43,789 bases of DNA. Source: Alphaproteobacteria bacterium. GTDB lineage: Bacteria > Pseudomonadota > Alphaproteobacteria > UBA9655. Location: the NCBI GenBank assembly GCA_027459605.1, contig DAIDHR010000017.1, positions 1 to 43,789 of the forward strand, read 5' to 3'. Within the stretch, counting starts at the first letter, position 1; every line of letters starts with the position of its first letter. The notes beneath the pieces were generated by a model. It searched no databases. It was not told the origin of the DNA and saw only the letters and a list, made by a program, of their open reading frames with translations. Position numbers and translations under genes: made by a program. Below, piece after piece: positions 12,702-17,718 of the stretch.

Positions 12702-12713
12702 TTAGCTAGCTAA
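12702..12713. repeat. 12-bp perfect palindrome, copy 2
   Basis: TTAGCTAGCTAA covers the last codons and stop of the MotA-like gene. It is identical to the palindrome at the 3' end of the MHS transporter gene (3644-3655), with similar flanking bases (ACAG on one side, AAG and GGCT on the other). Confidence 0.5.
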
Positions 12714-13814
12714 GCGGCTTGACTCCCCAAGACTTGCAATGGAGCGTGCAATGAGACGCATTTCTTCTTTCAGTCTCTTTAAAACCTCTTCTCGATCCTC
12801 TCGTTGGGATTGGAGTGACTGCACCAAAGCCCGTTCAATATGTTGAAGGCATTTGCGACTTTCCTCATCAAGACCTTGGGGAATTGTTGCCAGAAGATTT
12901 TGAAGTTGGACCTGACCCTCAGCCAGTTTAACCATAAGACCCTGATGAGTTTTATTCTGTTCTGAGGCAAGAGCCACAGAATTTATAAGCTTTTCTAAAA
13001 GGATATTTTTCTGCCGCTCATTTTTTTCTGTTTTTTCAATAACTTGAATGAAGCCTTCAAGGGATTCAACGTTTTTTGTCAGCAAAGATTGAATGTAACC
13101 AAGAGGTGCAGATCCAACCGAAGCTCCTTTATTATTGTGATAAGAACAAGAGGTCAAATAAAGGTCTGTTTCATTAAAAAAACGATTGTAGGCATGGCCT
13201 ACTTGAAGCTCTAAAAACCCAATTATCAAGGACCCCCCTAACCCAAAAAGAGATGAGCTAAAGGCGGTTCCCATCCCTGCTAATGGGCTTTGAAGACTTT
13301 GTTTTAAGAGCTCAAAAAAATTAGCCGAATTTGTTCCATCAGAAGGCATGCTCTGAATTAAATGAGTAATTGAAATGATTGTCTGAGAAAGCCCCCAAAA
13401 AGTTCCCAAAAGCCCTAAAAACACCAAAAGGCCAATCAAATACCGGGGGAGGACTCTTTCATTCTCAAGCCTATCCCCAAGGGAATGGGCAAGTCCTTTG
13501 GCCAGATGGGGATCTAAATCCTTTTTTTTCTCAGAAGAAAAAGAAAGGACTTGTTCTAAAAAATTCGCCTGAGGAACTGATGAAAAACTCCACCTACCTT
13601 GCTTCAAGTCATCCAAAACCTCAGCATCCTTCCTTAAGGAGAAAAGCTGATAAAAAGCATAAATACACCCACCAACAGTTAAGGCGAGAATGAGAAGATT
13701 TAAACGGGGATTACTTAAAAATATCAAAAGGAGTGAGGACATAAAACAAGCCCCAACACCCATTAATATAACACATGTAAGCCCCATTCGAAAAAAGTAA
13801 GGTCGGAGTTTCAT
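12702..13814 (-). CDS. MotA/TolQ/ExbB-like proton channel family protein
   Basis: This is a 370-residue inner-membrane protein. Predicted helices lie at about residues 12-34, 36-58, 124-144 and 177-201. The third contains FLGLLGTFWGLSQTI, the conserved MotA/TolQ/ExbB pore motif, and the fourth contains GMGTAFSSSLFGLGGSLIIG, the matching second pore helix. Residues 240-365 are a long charged, probably coiled-coil cytoplasmic tail. Family members use the proton gradient to drive a partner with one membrane helix (MotB, TolR, ExbD or an OmpA-like protein). No such partner is next to it. It starts 46 bases after the secretin stop, with AAGGAA before its ATG, so the two are probably co-transcribed. 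A role in powering the secretin system is inference. Confidence 0.75.
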   Translation of the reverse strand: MKLRPYFFRMGLTCVILMGVGACFMSSLLLIFLSNPRLNLLILALTVGGCIYAFYQLFSLRKDAEVLDDLKQGRWSFSSVPQANFLEQVLSFSSEKKKDLDPHLAKGLAHSLGDRLENERVLPRYLIGLLVFLGLLGTFWGLSQTIISITHLIQSMPSDGTNSANFFELLKQSLQSPLAGMGTAFSSSLFGLGGSLIIGFLELQVGHAYNRFFNETDLYLTSCSYHNNKGASVGSAPLGYIQSLLTKNVESLEGFIQVIEKTEKNERQKNILLEKLINSVALASEQNKTHQGLMVKLAEGQVQLQNLLATIPQGLDEESRKCLQHIERALVQSLQSQREDREEVLKRLKEEMRLIARSIASLGESSRLAS

Positions 13815-13860
13815 CTTGAATTCCTTTCATCACAAGTTGATGACATTTTACCCCCTCCCC

Positions 13861-15489
13861 TTAAAACTGCAAGGGGCGAGGATCCTCACTATAGGTATTA
13901 TATATTTTCTCGTCTGCTTCATCAATGTAGGGTTCATCCACAATGTGAGCTGTGAGGAAGATAACGAGTTCAGTTATCTTTCTGTCGTCATCTTTCCCTC
14001 TCGCCAACTCTCCAAAAAAGGGAATGCTATCAAAAAGGGGTACAGAGGCACTTTCATAACTTGCCCGATCCTCCATGAGTCCTCCCATAACAAGAATTTG
14101 ACCCGATTGCATTTTAAGGACCGAATCAAGTTCCCGCACTTGAACTACAGGGACGGAGGATTTGACTTTTTGGTGGGATTTAATCGCCACGGCTGGGTCT
14201 TCGACTTCTTTTTGAACTCGAGATATAGTGGGCCGAAGGGCCATCATGATTTCACCACTCTCAAAATTTACAGAAGGCTGAACAATCATGACAAGACCAA
14301 TTGGAACAGTCATCGCGTCGCTTGAAATATTTTCCACATCCGGTTTTCCTTCCGATTGAAAATAACGTTCAAATTCAAGATGAAAGAAAACTTCATTGGT
14401 TGCGACTTTCAACATGGCTGGCTGGTTATTCATGACTGTTAGGCGAGGATTTGAAAGGGTTCTCACTGTTCCAAATTTTTTTACCAAATTTAAAATGGCT
14501 GAAAACTTCTCGTGCTCCACTGCAAATGTAAAAACATCCCGGGTTGGATGGTGAGGTTCGTTATGGACACGAGGTGAAGAAAGAGATCCTAAAGGTACTG
14601 TTAAATGCACGTCGCCTCCTAGCTGACTCCAATTGATTCCACTTTTGTATTCTTGATCAAGGGTGACTTCAAGAATCTTGGCTTCAATAATGATTTGGGC
14701 CGTAATGGCTTCTTTCAGCTTTTTGAGATAGTTGTTAATTTGCAGGTGCTGTTTTGCTGTACCTGATACGATCACAAGTCCAGCCTGCTTATGCAAAGCA
14801 TAATTTGAAGGGCTTTTACCGGAAGGCCTTCCCTCGAGACTTAAAATGACCTTAAGATTTTTCTCAAGCTCAGACCAGAAATCAACAAGGCTAATTCCCA
14901 CCAAGAGGCTTTCTGATCCATTATCAGTTCGGCTTTGACTTTCAAGAGGAGAAAAAACATCGGTTGAAACGGAGATACGATTTTCACTCTTTCGGGTCTG
15001 ATTTAAAAACTCAACATGGTAGGTAACCAGGTAGGGATCATCTGGCTCGATAAGAATCCTATTTTCCTCGATTTGAAACCTGAGCCCTGTTATCAAACAG
15101 ATATCCTTTATCACATCAATAAAAGACCTTCGGTCAGCACTATAGAGAATTCCTTCCTGCTCATGGGCAACCTGAGAGTTTATAGCCATCCCCACACCAA
15201 CTTGGCGCCCTAATTCCATAAATGCTTCTTTAAGAGGGACTGATTCGGAGAAAGTTACAGAGACTTTCTTTTCCATAGCTGGCGTAAGAAGGGGAGCTTT
15301 CGATAGAGGGTAAATACGAGGATGAAAAGGCGGCACTTCCTTTTTTTGTAAATTTGGTTTAGTTATTTTTTCATAATCCTGTTGGGTAAGCTTTAAGGTC
15401 GGGTCATGAAACCGACGATGATCAACGAGATCGCATCCCTCAAGAAGACTTAAAATGCAAAAGATCCATAGTATTTTGATTATAGACAT
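13861..15489 (-). CDS. lipoprotein secretin (MshL/PilQ-like, type II/IV pilus outer-membrane channel)
   Basis: Secretins form the outer-membrane gate of type II secretion and type IV pilus systems. The N terminus is a lipoprotein signal peptide ending LLEGC, with the lipidated Cys at residue 19. A secretin/TonB short N-terminal domain lies at about 75-140. An N1/KH-like ring domain (about 225-265) follows, with HKQAGLVIVSGTAKQH. The C-terminal secretin beta domain (about 270-530) includes RTLSNPRLTVMNNQPAML and the closing signature GQILVMGGLMEDR, VPLFDSIPFFGELARG and ELVIFLTAHIV. ATG 15489 has GGGAGG at a good distance; GTG 15492 is too close to it. Of the single-lipoprotein secretins, MshL and BfpB/PilN types are the closest in feel. 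No pilus ATPase, platform protein or pilin is nearby. Confidence 0.85.
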   Translation of the reverse strand: MSIIKILWIFCILSLLEGCDLVDHRRFHDPTLKLTQQDYEKITKPNLQKKEVPPFHPRIYPLSKAPLLTPAMEKKVSVTFSESVPLKEAFMELGRQVGVGMAINSQVAHEQEGILYSADRRSFIDVIKDICLITGLRFQIEENRILIEPDDPYLVTYHVEFLNQTRKSENRISVSTDVFSPLESQSRTDNGSESLLVGISLVDFWSELEKNLKVILSLEGRPSGKSPSNYALHKQAGLVIVSGTAKQHLQINNYLKKLKEAITAQIIIEAKILEVTLDQEYKSGINWSQLGGDVHLTVPLGSLSSPRVHNEPHHPTRDVFTFAVEHEKFSAILNLVKKFGTVRTLSNPRLTVMNNQPAMLKVATNEVFFHLEFERYFQSEGKPDVENISSDAMTVPIGLVMIVQPSVNFESGEIMMALRPTISRVQKEVEDPAVAIKSHQKVKSSVPVVQVRELDSVLKMQSGQILVMGGLMEDRASYESASVPLFDSIPFFGELARGKDDDRKITELVIFLTAHIVDEPYIDEADEKIYNTYSEDPRPLQF

Positions 15490-15808
15490 CACACCTCCCC
15501 ACGTTCGGAATAAGTGTAAAATAAATGAAGTGGATTTTTCAAGTTTGAAAATTACGAATTAATTTTTTGGATCACTTTTTAATTTCTCCAAATAAGAAAG
15601 TTTTAAGCCAAGAAAAAGTTATCCGATGAAATATTTAATCAAAAGATGTATAGCCCCATCACAGCTTCGTTGCTTTCATCCTTGTGGAGGATTTCACATT
15701 AAGAGCCTGAAACAATTAAAAAAGAGTTGGAAATTACGAAATGTAAAGTTAAAAATAATAGCATGAAAATTAATTATAACATCTCTTAAAGATTTGTGAG
15801 AATTTCAA
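15490..15808. other. 319-bp divergent intergenic region
   Basis: This lies between the secretin (minus) and the LysE-type gene (plus). It is AT-rich; a TATAAC near 15776 could be a -10 box for the exporter. A 46-codon plus-strand frame at 15626-15766 is open but lacks a ribosome site and any recognisable similarity, so I do not call it. No strong hairpin was seen. Confidence 0.5.
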
Positions 15809-16447
15809 ATGGTATCGCTCGTTTTTCAATATTTACCCTTAATCCTGGGGCTCTCAAGTCTTGTGATGGTTGCTCTCATTAGCCCTGGCCCTGATTTTGC
15901 AGTGACTGTAAGAAATAGTCTTGTCTACTCAAGAAGAACGGGCCTTCTAACGGCTTTAGGAATTGCTATAGGATCTTTAATCCATACAACCTACACTCTG
16001 TTTGGATTAGGCATAATTATTCGCGAAACCCCCTGGATTTTTCTTCCCATCAAATACATAGGAGCTGCTTACCTGCTTTATATTGGGTTTAAGGGGTTGA
16101 GAGCTAAAAAAAGCACTTTGGCTTTAGGGAATATGAAACATGTGCAGGATATCACCCCTCTTTCAGCTCTGAGGTCTGGCTTTTTGACAAATGCCCTCAA
16201 TCCAAAAGCCATGTTGTTTTGTATGAGTCTTTTTTCAGCCATGATCCCCCCTCAAACCCCTGTCTCCATTTTAATTTTGTGTGGATTCATAATTTTCATA
16301 GAAACATTGGCGTGGTTTAGTTTCGTTGCTTTTTGCTTATCTGGGAAACGAACACGGGAAAAGTTTCACGCTATGGGGCATTGGATTGAAAGGATCACGG
16401 GGGGTGTTTTAATTTCCCTCGCTGCAAGGCTTATTTATATGGTATAA
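15809..16447 (+). CDS. LysE/RhtB family amino-acid exporter
   Basis: This 212-residue inner-membrane exporter has about six helices. The family signature is at the first helix, ALISPGPDFAVTVRNSL (about residues 22-38), followed by GLLTALGIAIGSLIHTTYTLFGLG in helix 2. GAAYLLYIGFKGLRAK and FLTNALNPKAMLF are also typical of RhtB/LysE proteins. Family members export lysine, threonine, homoserine or related compounds; the substrate is not predictable. The ribosome site is weak. It stands alone on the plus strand before the prepilin peptidase. Confidence 0.9.
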   Translation: MVSLVFQYLPLILGLSSLVMVALISPGPDFAVTVRNSLVYSRRTGLLTALGIAIGSLIHTTYTLFGLGIIIRETPWIFLPIKYIGAAYLLYIGFKGLRAKKSTLALGNMKHVQDITPLSALRSGFLTNALNPKAMLFCMSLFSAMIPPQTPVSILILCGFIIFIETLAWFSFVAFCLSGKRTREKFHAMGHWIERITGGVLISLAARLIYMV

Positions 16448-16548
16448 GAGCTTCTAAAAAACGCACCGCTTACAATATCTATCTTGGAGGTTCGTAAAGG
16501 GAGCCCTATAATCATCAACAACCCTTTTTATAAAATATCATATATCAG

Positions 16549-16974
16549 ATGCTCCCCATTCACCCTATCTTAGCAAATTCTTTACTTTTTCTCATTTTAA
16601 TGGGAATCAGCATAAAAGATTTCAAGGATGGCCTGATTCCAAACATTTTTGTTATCGGACTGACCCTCCTCGGAATTCTGGAATTTGGAGGGACTCACTT
16701 CATGAGTGTCTTAATTTTGGGCCCGCTCGCCTATGGCATTTATAAGCTTTACCCTCTTCTTCGAAACCAAGAAGGGCTTGGATTTGGAGATGTAAAACTA
16801 ATGACTGCTTCAGGGATTTGGCTCAATCTTTCTCAGCTCCCCTTATTCCTTATAGTTGCAGGAGGAACTGGCGTGATCATTGCTCTTTTATGGCATATTT
16901 TAAAGAAGGAAGTTCGCTTTCCCTTAGGACCAGCCCTTGCACTTGCGCTCGGAATTTGTATTGTGGGGAATTAA
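16549..16974 (+). CDS. prepilin peptidase, A24 family (minimal CpaA/TadV-like form)
   Basis: This is a membrane aspartic peptidase that processes type IV prepilins and pseudopilins. The two catalytic aspartates are visible: Asp24 in IKDFKDGLIPN and Asp81 in GLGFGDVKLM. Five or six hydrophobic segments fill the 141 residues. The N-terminal methyltransferase domain of PilD/GspO is absent, so this is the short peptidase-only form. It lies about 1.1 kb from the secretin gene, on the opposite strand across the exporter. The nearness suggests a shared pilus or pseudopilus pathway, but the pilin genes are not here. Confidence 0.85.
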   Translation: MLPIHPILANSLLFLILMGISIKDFKDGLIPNIFVIGLTLLGILEFGGTHFMSVLILGPLAYGIYKLYPLLRNQEGLGFGDVKLMTASGIWLNLSQLPLFLIVAGGTGVIIALLWHILKKEVRFPLGPALALALGICIVGN

Positions 16975-16998
16975 AGCTTATCAAAAGGAGACTATGAA

Positions 16999-17718
16999 AT
17001 GACCATCTCTTTTTCAGGGCCAAGTCTTTCCCCCGCCTCGGGAAACAAGCCTGAGTCTATTGTTGTGTTTCTTCACGGCTATGGCGCCAATGGCCATGAT
17101 TTATTATCCCTGGGAACAGCCTGGGCGGCCCTTCTTCCTAACACTCTTTTTATAGCCCCACATGGACCAAGCACAAGTATGCTTTATCCGTCTGGAAACC
17201 AGTGGTTCAGTTTGGAAGATTGGAATCCTGAGGAACCGTTCACAAACCATCAAAAGGCCCGAATACTATCGGAGATCCAAGCTCTTACTCCTTCATTTAA
17301 TCGATATTTAGATGACCTTTTAAAAGTAAATGACTTGCCTCCCGAAAAGCTGGCCCTTGTGGGTTTTTCCCAAGGAACGATGTTTGCTCTTCATGTGGCC
17401 CTCCACCGCCCTTTATGCGGAGGTGTGGTGGGTTATTCGGGCGCGTTTTTTGATGATTCTACTGAGCCTAAAACCGCATGTCCGCCTATTCTCCTTCTCC
17501 ATGGTCAAGAAGATCATCTGGTCCCCCCCTCTTTCTCACAAGAGGCTGAAGCCCGTTTGAAAGCGCTTGGAATTCCTGTAAATCTTTGCCTTTTGCCAGG
17601 TCTCAATCATGGAATAAATGAAAAAGGACTAAAAATGGGAGGTGTGTTTTTAAAAGATCATCTTTATAAAAACCCGCAGGCTGACTTGTGGCAATGCGCT
17701 AAAGAGGGTAATAGTTAA
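16999..17718 (+). CDS. phospholipase/carboxylesterase-type alpha/beta hydrolase
   Basis: This 239-residue soluble serine hydrolase belongs to the carboxylesterase/thioesterase (YpfH-like, PF02230) family. FLHGYGANGHDL (about residues 24-35) supplies the oxyanion hole. The nucleophile is Ser124 in VGFSQGTMFAL, with Asp172 in HGQEDHLVP and His204 in GLNHGINEKG completing the triad. AAGGAG lies 12 bases before ATG 16999. It is just upstream of mdh and may be co-transcribed with it. The substrate is unknown; relatives cleave short acyl esters or acyl thioesters. Confidence 0.88.
   Translation: MTISFSGPSLSPASGNKPESIVVFLHGYGANGHDLLSLGTAWAALLPNTLFIAPHGPSTSMLYPSGNQWFSLEDWNPEEPFTNHQKARILSEIQALTPSFNRYLDDLLKVNDLPPEKLALVGFSQGTMFALHVALHRPLCGGVVGYSGAFFDDSTEPKTACPPILLLHGQEDHLVPPSFSQEAEARLKALGIPVNLCLLPGLNHGINEKGLKMGGVFLKDHLYKNPQADLWQCAKEGNS

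Follow-up and report, generated by a model that had tools for sequence, protein, structure and literature searches.

The locus at which a lipoprotein secretin gene adjoins a gene for a MotA-like protein is best read as a meeting point of two unrelated machines, an MSHA-like pilus, to which the secretin would belong, and a proton-driven motor, of which the MotA-like protein would be the A subunit, each completed by genes elsewhere in the genome; we put the probability of this reading at roughly 0.78. The window, i.e., the whole stretch of 43,789 nucleotides that was analyzed, is contig C17 of an alphaproteobacterial genome (G000; 85 contigs, 99% complete), which was compared at the level of the order with a set of 17 genomes, itself included, and at the level of the class with 385 alphaproteobacterial genomes. 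The order set contains at least five further members of the same genus (G006, G007, G008, G012, and G013) and two genomes from outgroup genera (G001 and G002). The layout given in a preliminary description of this DNA, with a lipoprotein secretin, a gap of 46 bp, a MotA/ExbB-like gene, and an A24 peptidase 1.1 kb away, was recovered in full (Table 1); a LysE-type transporter gene sits between the secretin and peptidase genes.

Table 1. Features of the secretin/MotA-like locus in the window.
Feature	Position	Strand	Basis
MotA/ExbB/ZorA-like inner-membrane subunit (putative), coiled C-terminal tail, 370 aa	12702..13814	-	alignment, predicted model, PADLOC ZorA 3e-15
Secretin/MotA-like intergenic gap, 46 bases	13815..13860	-	Shine-Dalgarno AAAGGA and TAAAAT box
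Lipoprotein secretin, MshL-like, 543 aa	13861..15492	-	PF00263 104.7 bits; TIGR02519 219.1 bits (cut-off 250.2)
LysE-type transporter, neighbor, not part of the system	15809..16447	+	PF01810 131 bits
Prepilin peptidase, A24 domain only, 141 aa	16549..16974	+	PF01478 51.9 bits
Alpha/beta-hydrolase (Abhydrolase_2), frame shared with the A24 gene	16999..17718	+	PF02230 117 bits

The secretin matches the Pfam Secretin model with an E value of 5e-30, carries a lipobox read by eye as LLEGC, and has MshL as its best NCBIfam model, with a score under the cut-off of that model. MshL-like orthologues are present in 14 of the 17 order genomes, including the copy of G002, which is broken by TGA. No MshL-type secretin was found in G003, G004, and G009, though MshE is kept in them (two are below 90% completeness, G003 is at 96%), and these three genomes were left out of the secretin tree. 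The preliminary description had listed a pilus ATPase, a platform protein, and pilins as missing and had offered, as one of two alternatives, a scattered pilus system with its remaining genes at other places. Profile searches found all of these components on other contigs, with an MshE-MshG operon on C31 and prepilins on C26; since the pilus parts are present in G000 but unlinked, the alternative of a scattered pilus holds, its genes being spread over at least three contigs (C17, C26, and C31) and not gathered in one locus. The C31 operon encodes a T2SSE ATPase, a GspF-type platform protein (PF00482, 157 bits), and three proteins that stand where PilN, PilO, and PilP/MshK would be expected; family models recognized none of the three, which are named from gene position and size only. 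There is no secretin within the operon, and a GGDEF-EAL gene follows it. The ATPase (G000:C31:6563-8254) bears MshEN and c-di-GMP-binding domains; it scores 396 bits against PF00437, 58 bits against PF05157 (MshEN), and 43 bits against NF053729, for which the cut-off is 38. Its MshE orthologues were found in 15 of the 17 order genomes, the broken one of G006 included, with no match in G005 and G002. Two prepilins on C26 exceed the TIGR02532 cut-off of 16.3 with 19.8 and 18.5 bits, and the PF00437 search of the genome returned no PilT-type ATPase. The role proposed for the secretin is that of the outer-membrane ring in a type IV pilus or pseudopilus resembling MSHA; energy would be supplied by the MshE-type ATPase with its c-di-GMP-binding domain, while the C26 prepilins would be cut by the product of the A24 gene beside the secretin. 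The Tad system was also considered as the owner of the secretin and was rejected, as the Tad locus on C8 is separate and has its own CpaC-like secretin, ATPase, and short peptidase of 183 aa. This Tad/Flp locus (L016) comprises TadE-like genes, CpaB, CpaC, CpaE, CpaF, TadB, TadC, and a TadV peptidase (names partly by reading). On the pili of Holosporales, the literature search gave nothing on point among the matches listed.

The assignment of the window peptidase draws on gene order in the outgroup genera. D24 and the D81 of the GxGD motif are invariant in the alignment, and the window protein is devoid of A24_N, i.e., the N-terminal part present in the secretin-adjacent orthologues of G001 and G002. 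In both of these genomes the secretin gene and a gene for full-length PilD are divergently oriented, and in G001 the complete PilD was confirmed by a domain test for PF06750 (A24_N). The order in G002 is secretin, PilD, and then hydrolase-mdh-sucC, as in the window but without the LysE-type gene, which is not at the corresponding place in either genome. This gene order indicates that the association of the window peptidase with the secretin is inherited and that the N-terminal domain of the peptidase has been lost. The protein would be a trimmed PilD, able to cut prepilins but probably not to methylate them; no bifunctional prepilin peptidase-methylase was found, the sole other PF01478 match being the 183-aa Tad peptidase. 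Independently of the pilus, the A24 peptidase and the alpha/beta-hydrolase were seen as a single open reading frame of 365-396 aa in 13 genomes of the genus (L226, L227, L228, L230-L233, L236, L237, L239, L243, L247, and L250). In the window (16549-17718), a TAA separates the two with the frame unchanged. A Met at the junction and a preceding GGAG are kept in 13/13 fusions, which suggests that the hydrolase may also start internally. The hydrolase is not thought to be part of the pilus system, and the literature held nothing on point about a prepilin peptidase-hydrolase fusion among the matches listed.

The MotA-like protein reaches 15.9 bits against PF01618 (MotA_ExbB), below the cut-off of 22.9. 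A structure prediction from 8 sequences reached a mean pLDDT of only 60.2; the later model, built from 65 sequences, has a mean pLDDT of 74.5 and mostly about 90 in the membrane core. The 65-sequence alignment (A4) derives from 89 scanned loci, 78 of which gave MotA-like sequences, reduced to 57 by the redundancy cut and joined by the eight of alignment A1. The later model matches the folds of ExbB (Z 12.4 over 190 residues), TolQ (12.2; 11-12 across ExbB/TolQ chains), ZorA (10.8; range 10.5-10.8), and MotA (9.6), and although helical models reach middling Z values easily, the top 22 fold-match rows all belong to the ExbB/TolQ/MotA superfamily. A PDB sequence search with the MotA-like alignments yielded apparently only chance coiled-coil matches. 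When the contigs of the genome collection were queried with the single protein, no match was obtained, while alignment A1 retrieved 582 relatives, the best 80 of which were examined. A search with the family alignment found the family in 249 of the 385 class genomes, mostly as one copy, and 8 of the 17 order genomes carry the gene.

The coiled tail and the ZorA fold match could be taken to mean that the protein is the ZorA subunit of the Zorya defense system, and PADLOC does recognize ZorA in it (Table 1) and ZorB in its partner (2e-22). However, the ExbB and TolQ fold matches are equal or better, the scores against the NCBIfam ZorA models stay far from their cut-offs (14.8 of 750, 14.5 of 100, 13.4 of 500, and 11.9 of 250), no ZorC, ZorD, or ZorE was detected by PADLOC in nine proteins neighboring the A and B genes, and presence in 249/385 genomes of the class looks like housekeeping. 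A Zorya role is therefore highly improbable, and it was rejected on the sub-threshold family scores and the lack of effectors among the nine neighbors scanned.

The partner of the channel, which the preliminary description had found to be missing, is present on another contig. TolQ and TolR are both encoded on C5, separately from the genes discussed here, and C16 carries an OmpA/MotB-like gene (C16:17939-18907), flanked by isocitrate dehydrogenase and rpiB. Its product scores 385.9 bits against NF006543 (cut-off 305) and has an OmpA domain (PF00691, 56 bits); an Asp in the membrane helix is invariant in the alignment of the partner family. The same placement is found in G006, G007, G008, G012, and G013, and in G016 the partner gene lies beside rpiB at a contig end. 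Because the A gene (C17) and the B gene (C16) are unlinked in G000, their pairing there is drawn from co-occurrence and from relatives. Among the best 80 of the 582 relatives, an OmpA/MotB-like gene is directly downstream of the MotA-like gene in 74 loci (66 complete open reading frames and 8 recognized via the N-terminal motif only). The other six comprise two loci of the window's genus, one ending 243 bases past the gene, one labelled Candidatus Finniella inopinata, and two unexplained. In the locus so labelled (L153), the MotA-like gene has no adjoining partner, which suggests that the separation of A and B may extend beyond the window's genus.

Within the order, a search with the partner alignment found a full-length partner in all eight MotA-positive genomes and in none of the nine MotA-negative ones, where matches were limited to weak ones to the OmpA domain (one-sided Fisher test, 4.1e-5, with relatedness ignored). 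When a completeness of at least 90% is required, three of the nine negatives drop out, and the figures for the remaining 14 genomes are 8/8 vs 0/6. On the MshE tree (14 rows, without G006, in which MshE is broken, and G005 and G002, which gave no MshE match), the presence of the pair needs three changes, at least two of them forced by well-supported branches, so that A and B were probably lost jointly more than once. In the motor proposed here, the MotA-like protein would be the ring-forming A subunit and the OmpA/MotB-like peptidoglycan binder of C16 the B subunit. The five-to-two A:B stoichiometry and the ion flow come from ZorAB and its relatives (PMC11890865); by this analogy, some five copies of A would assemble with two of B, and the passage of ions would be turned into rotation or into a force acting on the cell wall.

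The surroundings of the pair gave some further observations. In 51 of the same 80 loci (the best 80 of 582), such as L116, L122, L163, L169, and L146, the gene before the MotA-like gene is co-directional and similar, according to single-linkage clustering alone. Five of six upstream genes tested encode a Pro-rich stretch followed by a C-terminal OmpA domain, and several are preceded by suhB and efp. It is possible that this gene encodes a third part of the motor. A search for it across the order gave, within G000, no better match than the OmpA domain of the B subunit, and weak matches elsewhere do not track the MotA-like gene. On C31 (L014, 8432-14912), the genes read as lolA, ftsK, suhB, efp, and fba lie upstream of the pilus operon, and these surroundings are partly those of the MotA-OmpA pair in Rhodospirillales loci.

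The adjacency of the secretin and MotA-like genes recurs in 6 of the 17 order genomes (G000, G006, G007, G008, G012, and G013), so that the concern that it might be confined to a single genome does not apply and the arrangement looks like more than chance; all six belong to one genus. The orientation is constant and the gap measures 44-46 bases, the gene upstream of the secretin differs in each of the six, and the MotA-like proteins share 61-67% identity. That the pair was kept at this identity while its flanks changed makes selection for linkage possible. A gene named by reading as trmB is abutted directly by the secretin in G010, G011, and G015 and by the MotA-like gene in G016, and it comes after the pair, directly or one gene later, in G007, G008, G012, and G013. 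These arrangements fit an ancestral order secretin-motA-trmB in the genus, with one or the other gene later lost. The linkage is thus old, yet neither gene relies on it.

The gap itself allows two views of transcription. It contains no terminator-like site, and the two genes may be co-transcribed. On the other side, four of the six genomes show a TAAAAT box roughly 30 bases ahead of the MotA ATG, and the remaining two show TAGAAT and TAAGGT there; TG precedes the box in five of six. This conserved -10-like element leaves room for a separate promoter, located where the secretin gene ends. A promoter-like match (10 of 12), ending about 83 bases before the ATG, can be added to it, with the number of such matches equal to the shuffled mean. 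However, the box was not seen upstream of the unlinked MotA-like genes of G016 and G001, and the lack of a terminator-like site also speaks against separate transcription, which we consider a somewhat doubtful possibility and one compatible with the two-machine reading. Within the gap, about 10 bases past the secretin stop, a short TGTAAAATG-like element is kept in the window and five relatives.

The second alternative of the preliminary description, a secretin gate assisted by proton motive force, found no support. By co-occurrence and gene order, the partner of the channel protein is the OmpA/MotB-like protein; the secretin is found without a MotA-like gene anywhere in the genome in six of the nine MotA-negative order genomes (G002, G005, G010, G011, G014, and G015), and the MotA-like gene is apart from the secretin in G001 and G016. 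As the two genes survive separately, a proton-driven secretin is unsupported, and it was rejected as the best reading on co-occurrence. To our knowledge, no motor-type energy coupling for secretins has been described. A weaker form of the idea is that the MotA-OmpA motor was recruited in this genus to aid the pilus secretin, by setting or opening the cell-wall gap for it or by supplying the force that drives uptake, and is for this reason expressed along with the secretin from one operon. The constancy of adjacency, orientation, and gap in six genomes despite changed upstream neighbors would agree with it, as would the presence of the secretin in every MotA-bearing order genome (8/8) and the action of both systems at the cell wall. 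Nevertheless, beyond the separate survival of the two genes, the motor is class-wide and in the examined relatives is accompanied by an OmpA-like gene, in several read examples also by suhB and efp. The B subunit gene is outside the secretin operon, and G006 retains both the secretin and the MotA-like gene although its MshE frame is broken. Such recruitment appears unlikely. Still lower stands the specific version in which a peptidoglycan-anchored, Tol/Zor-like proton motor was drawn into the pilus secretin operon and helps the secretin to cross or open the cell wall, which we regard as quite improbable. Under the two-machine reading, the adjacency would be old in the genus and might involve co-transcription, yet neither part would need the other.

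In the literature searched, one experimental paper is possibly relevant to the alphaproteobacterial MotA-OmpA pair. According to the available text of this paper, raised expression of motA and motB in Komagataeibacter hansenii, which has no flagella, led to longer cells and an altered cellulose network; the two genes are adjacent and encode 348 and 321 aa, sizes similar to those found here, and GFP fusions of their products were located at the cell poles (PMC6570709). These genes would probably belong to the same family. A text search of cell-division papers on Sinorhizobium and Rhodobacter found no mention of MotA or ExbB. A survey of stator relatives outside the flagellum, published in 2025, reports that OmpA homology was not discernible in the B subunits studied (PMC12505986); set against that survey, a class-wide pair with an OmpA domain looks like a gap in the current picture. 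The present data point to a proton-driven A/B motor in 249/385 sampled alphaproteobacterial genomes, with an OmpA domain in its B subunit. It would be a widespread but poorly understood cell-envelope motor, and the pair can be tested in Magnetospirillum, Azospirillum, or Komagataeibacter.

What appeared to be a new machine has thus dissolved into parts assigned to two known kinds; all parts are of known kinds, and the gene order seen here is a variant at the level of the genus. With the MSHA-type pilus (MshL, MshE, and MshG), the system shares a secretin with the MshL model as its best match, an MshEN/c-di-GMP ATPase, a GspF-type platform protein, prepilins, and a prepilin peptidase, and the GGDEF-EAL gene beside the operon was counted as a further likeness; it differs in having its genes on at least three contigs, a secretin under the MshL cut-off, a peptidase without the methylase domain, and no PilT by PF00437. 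The Tol-Pal and Ton motors (TolQ-TolR and ExbB-ExbD) provide the best fold match for the A subunit, but the B subunit has an OmpA domain instead of an ExbD/TolR domain, and TolQ/TolR are encoded separately on C5. The likeness to ZorAB of Zorya, within the available description (PMC11890865), is in an A subunit with a cytoplasmic coiled tail and a B subunit with a peptidoglycan-binding domain and a membrane Asp, whereas the scores far below the ZorA cut-offs, the lack of effector genes nearby, and the class-wide spread set the two apart. A further counterpart of the motor is the alphaproteobacterial pair of a MotA-like protein and the PRK09039 "peptidoglycan-binding protein," with which it shares the architecture of both A and B and a B subunit over the NF006543 cut-off; the difference here is that A and B are unlinked and A adjoins the secretin.
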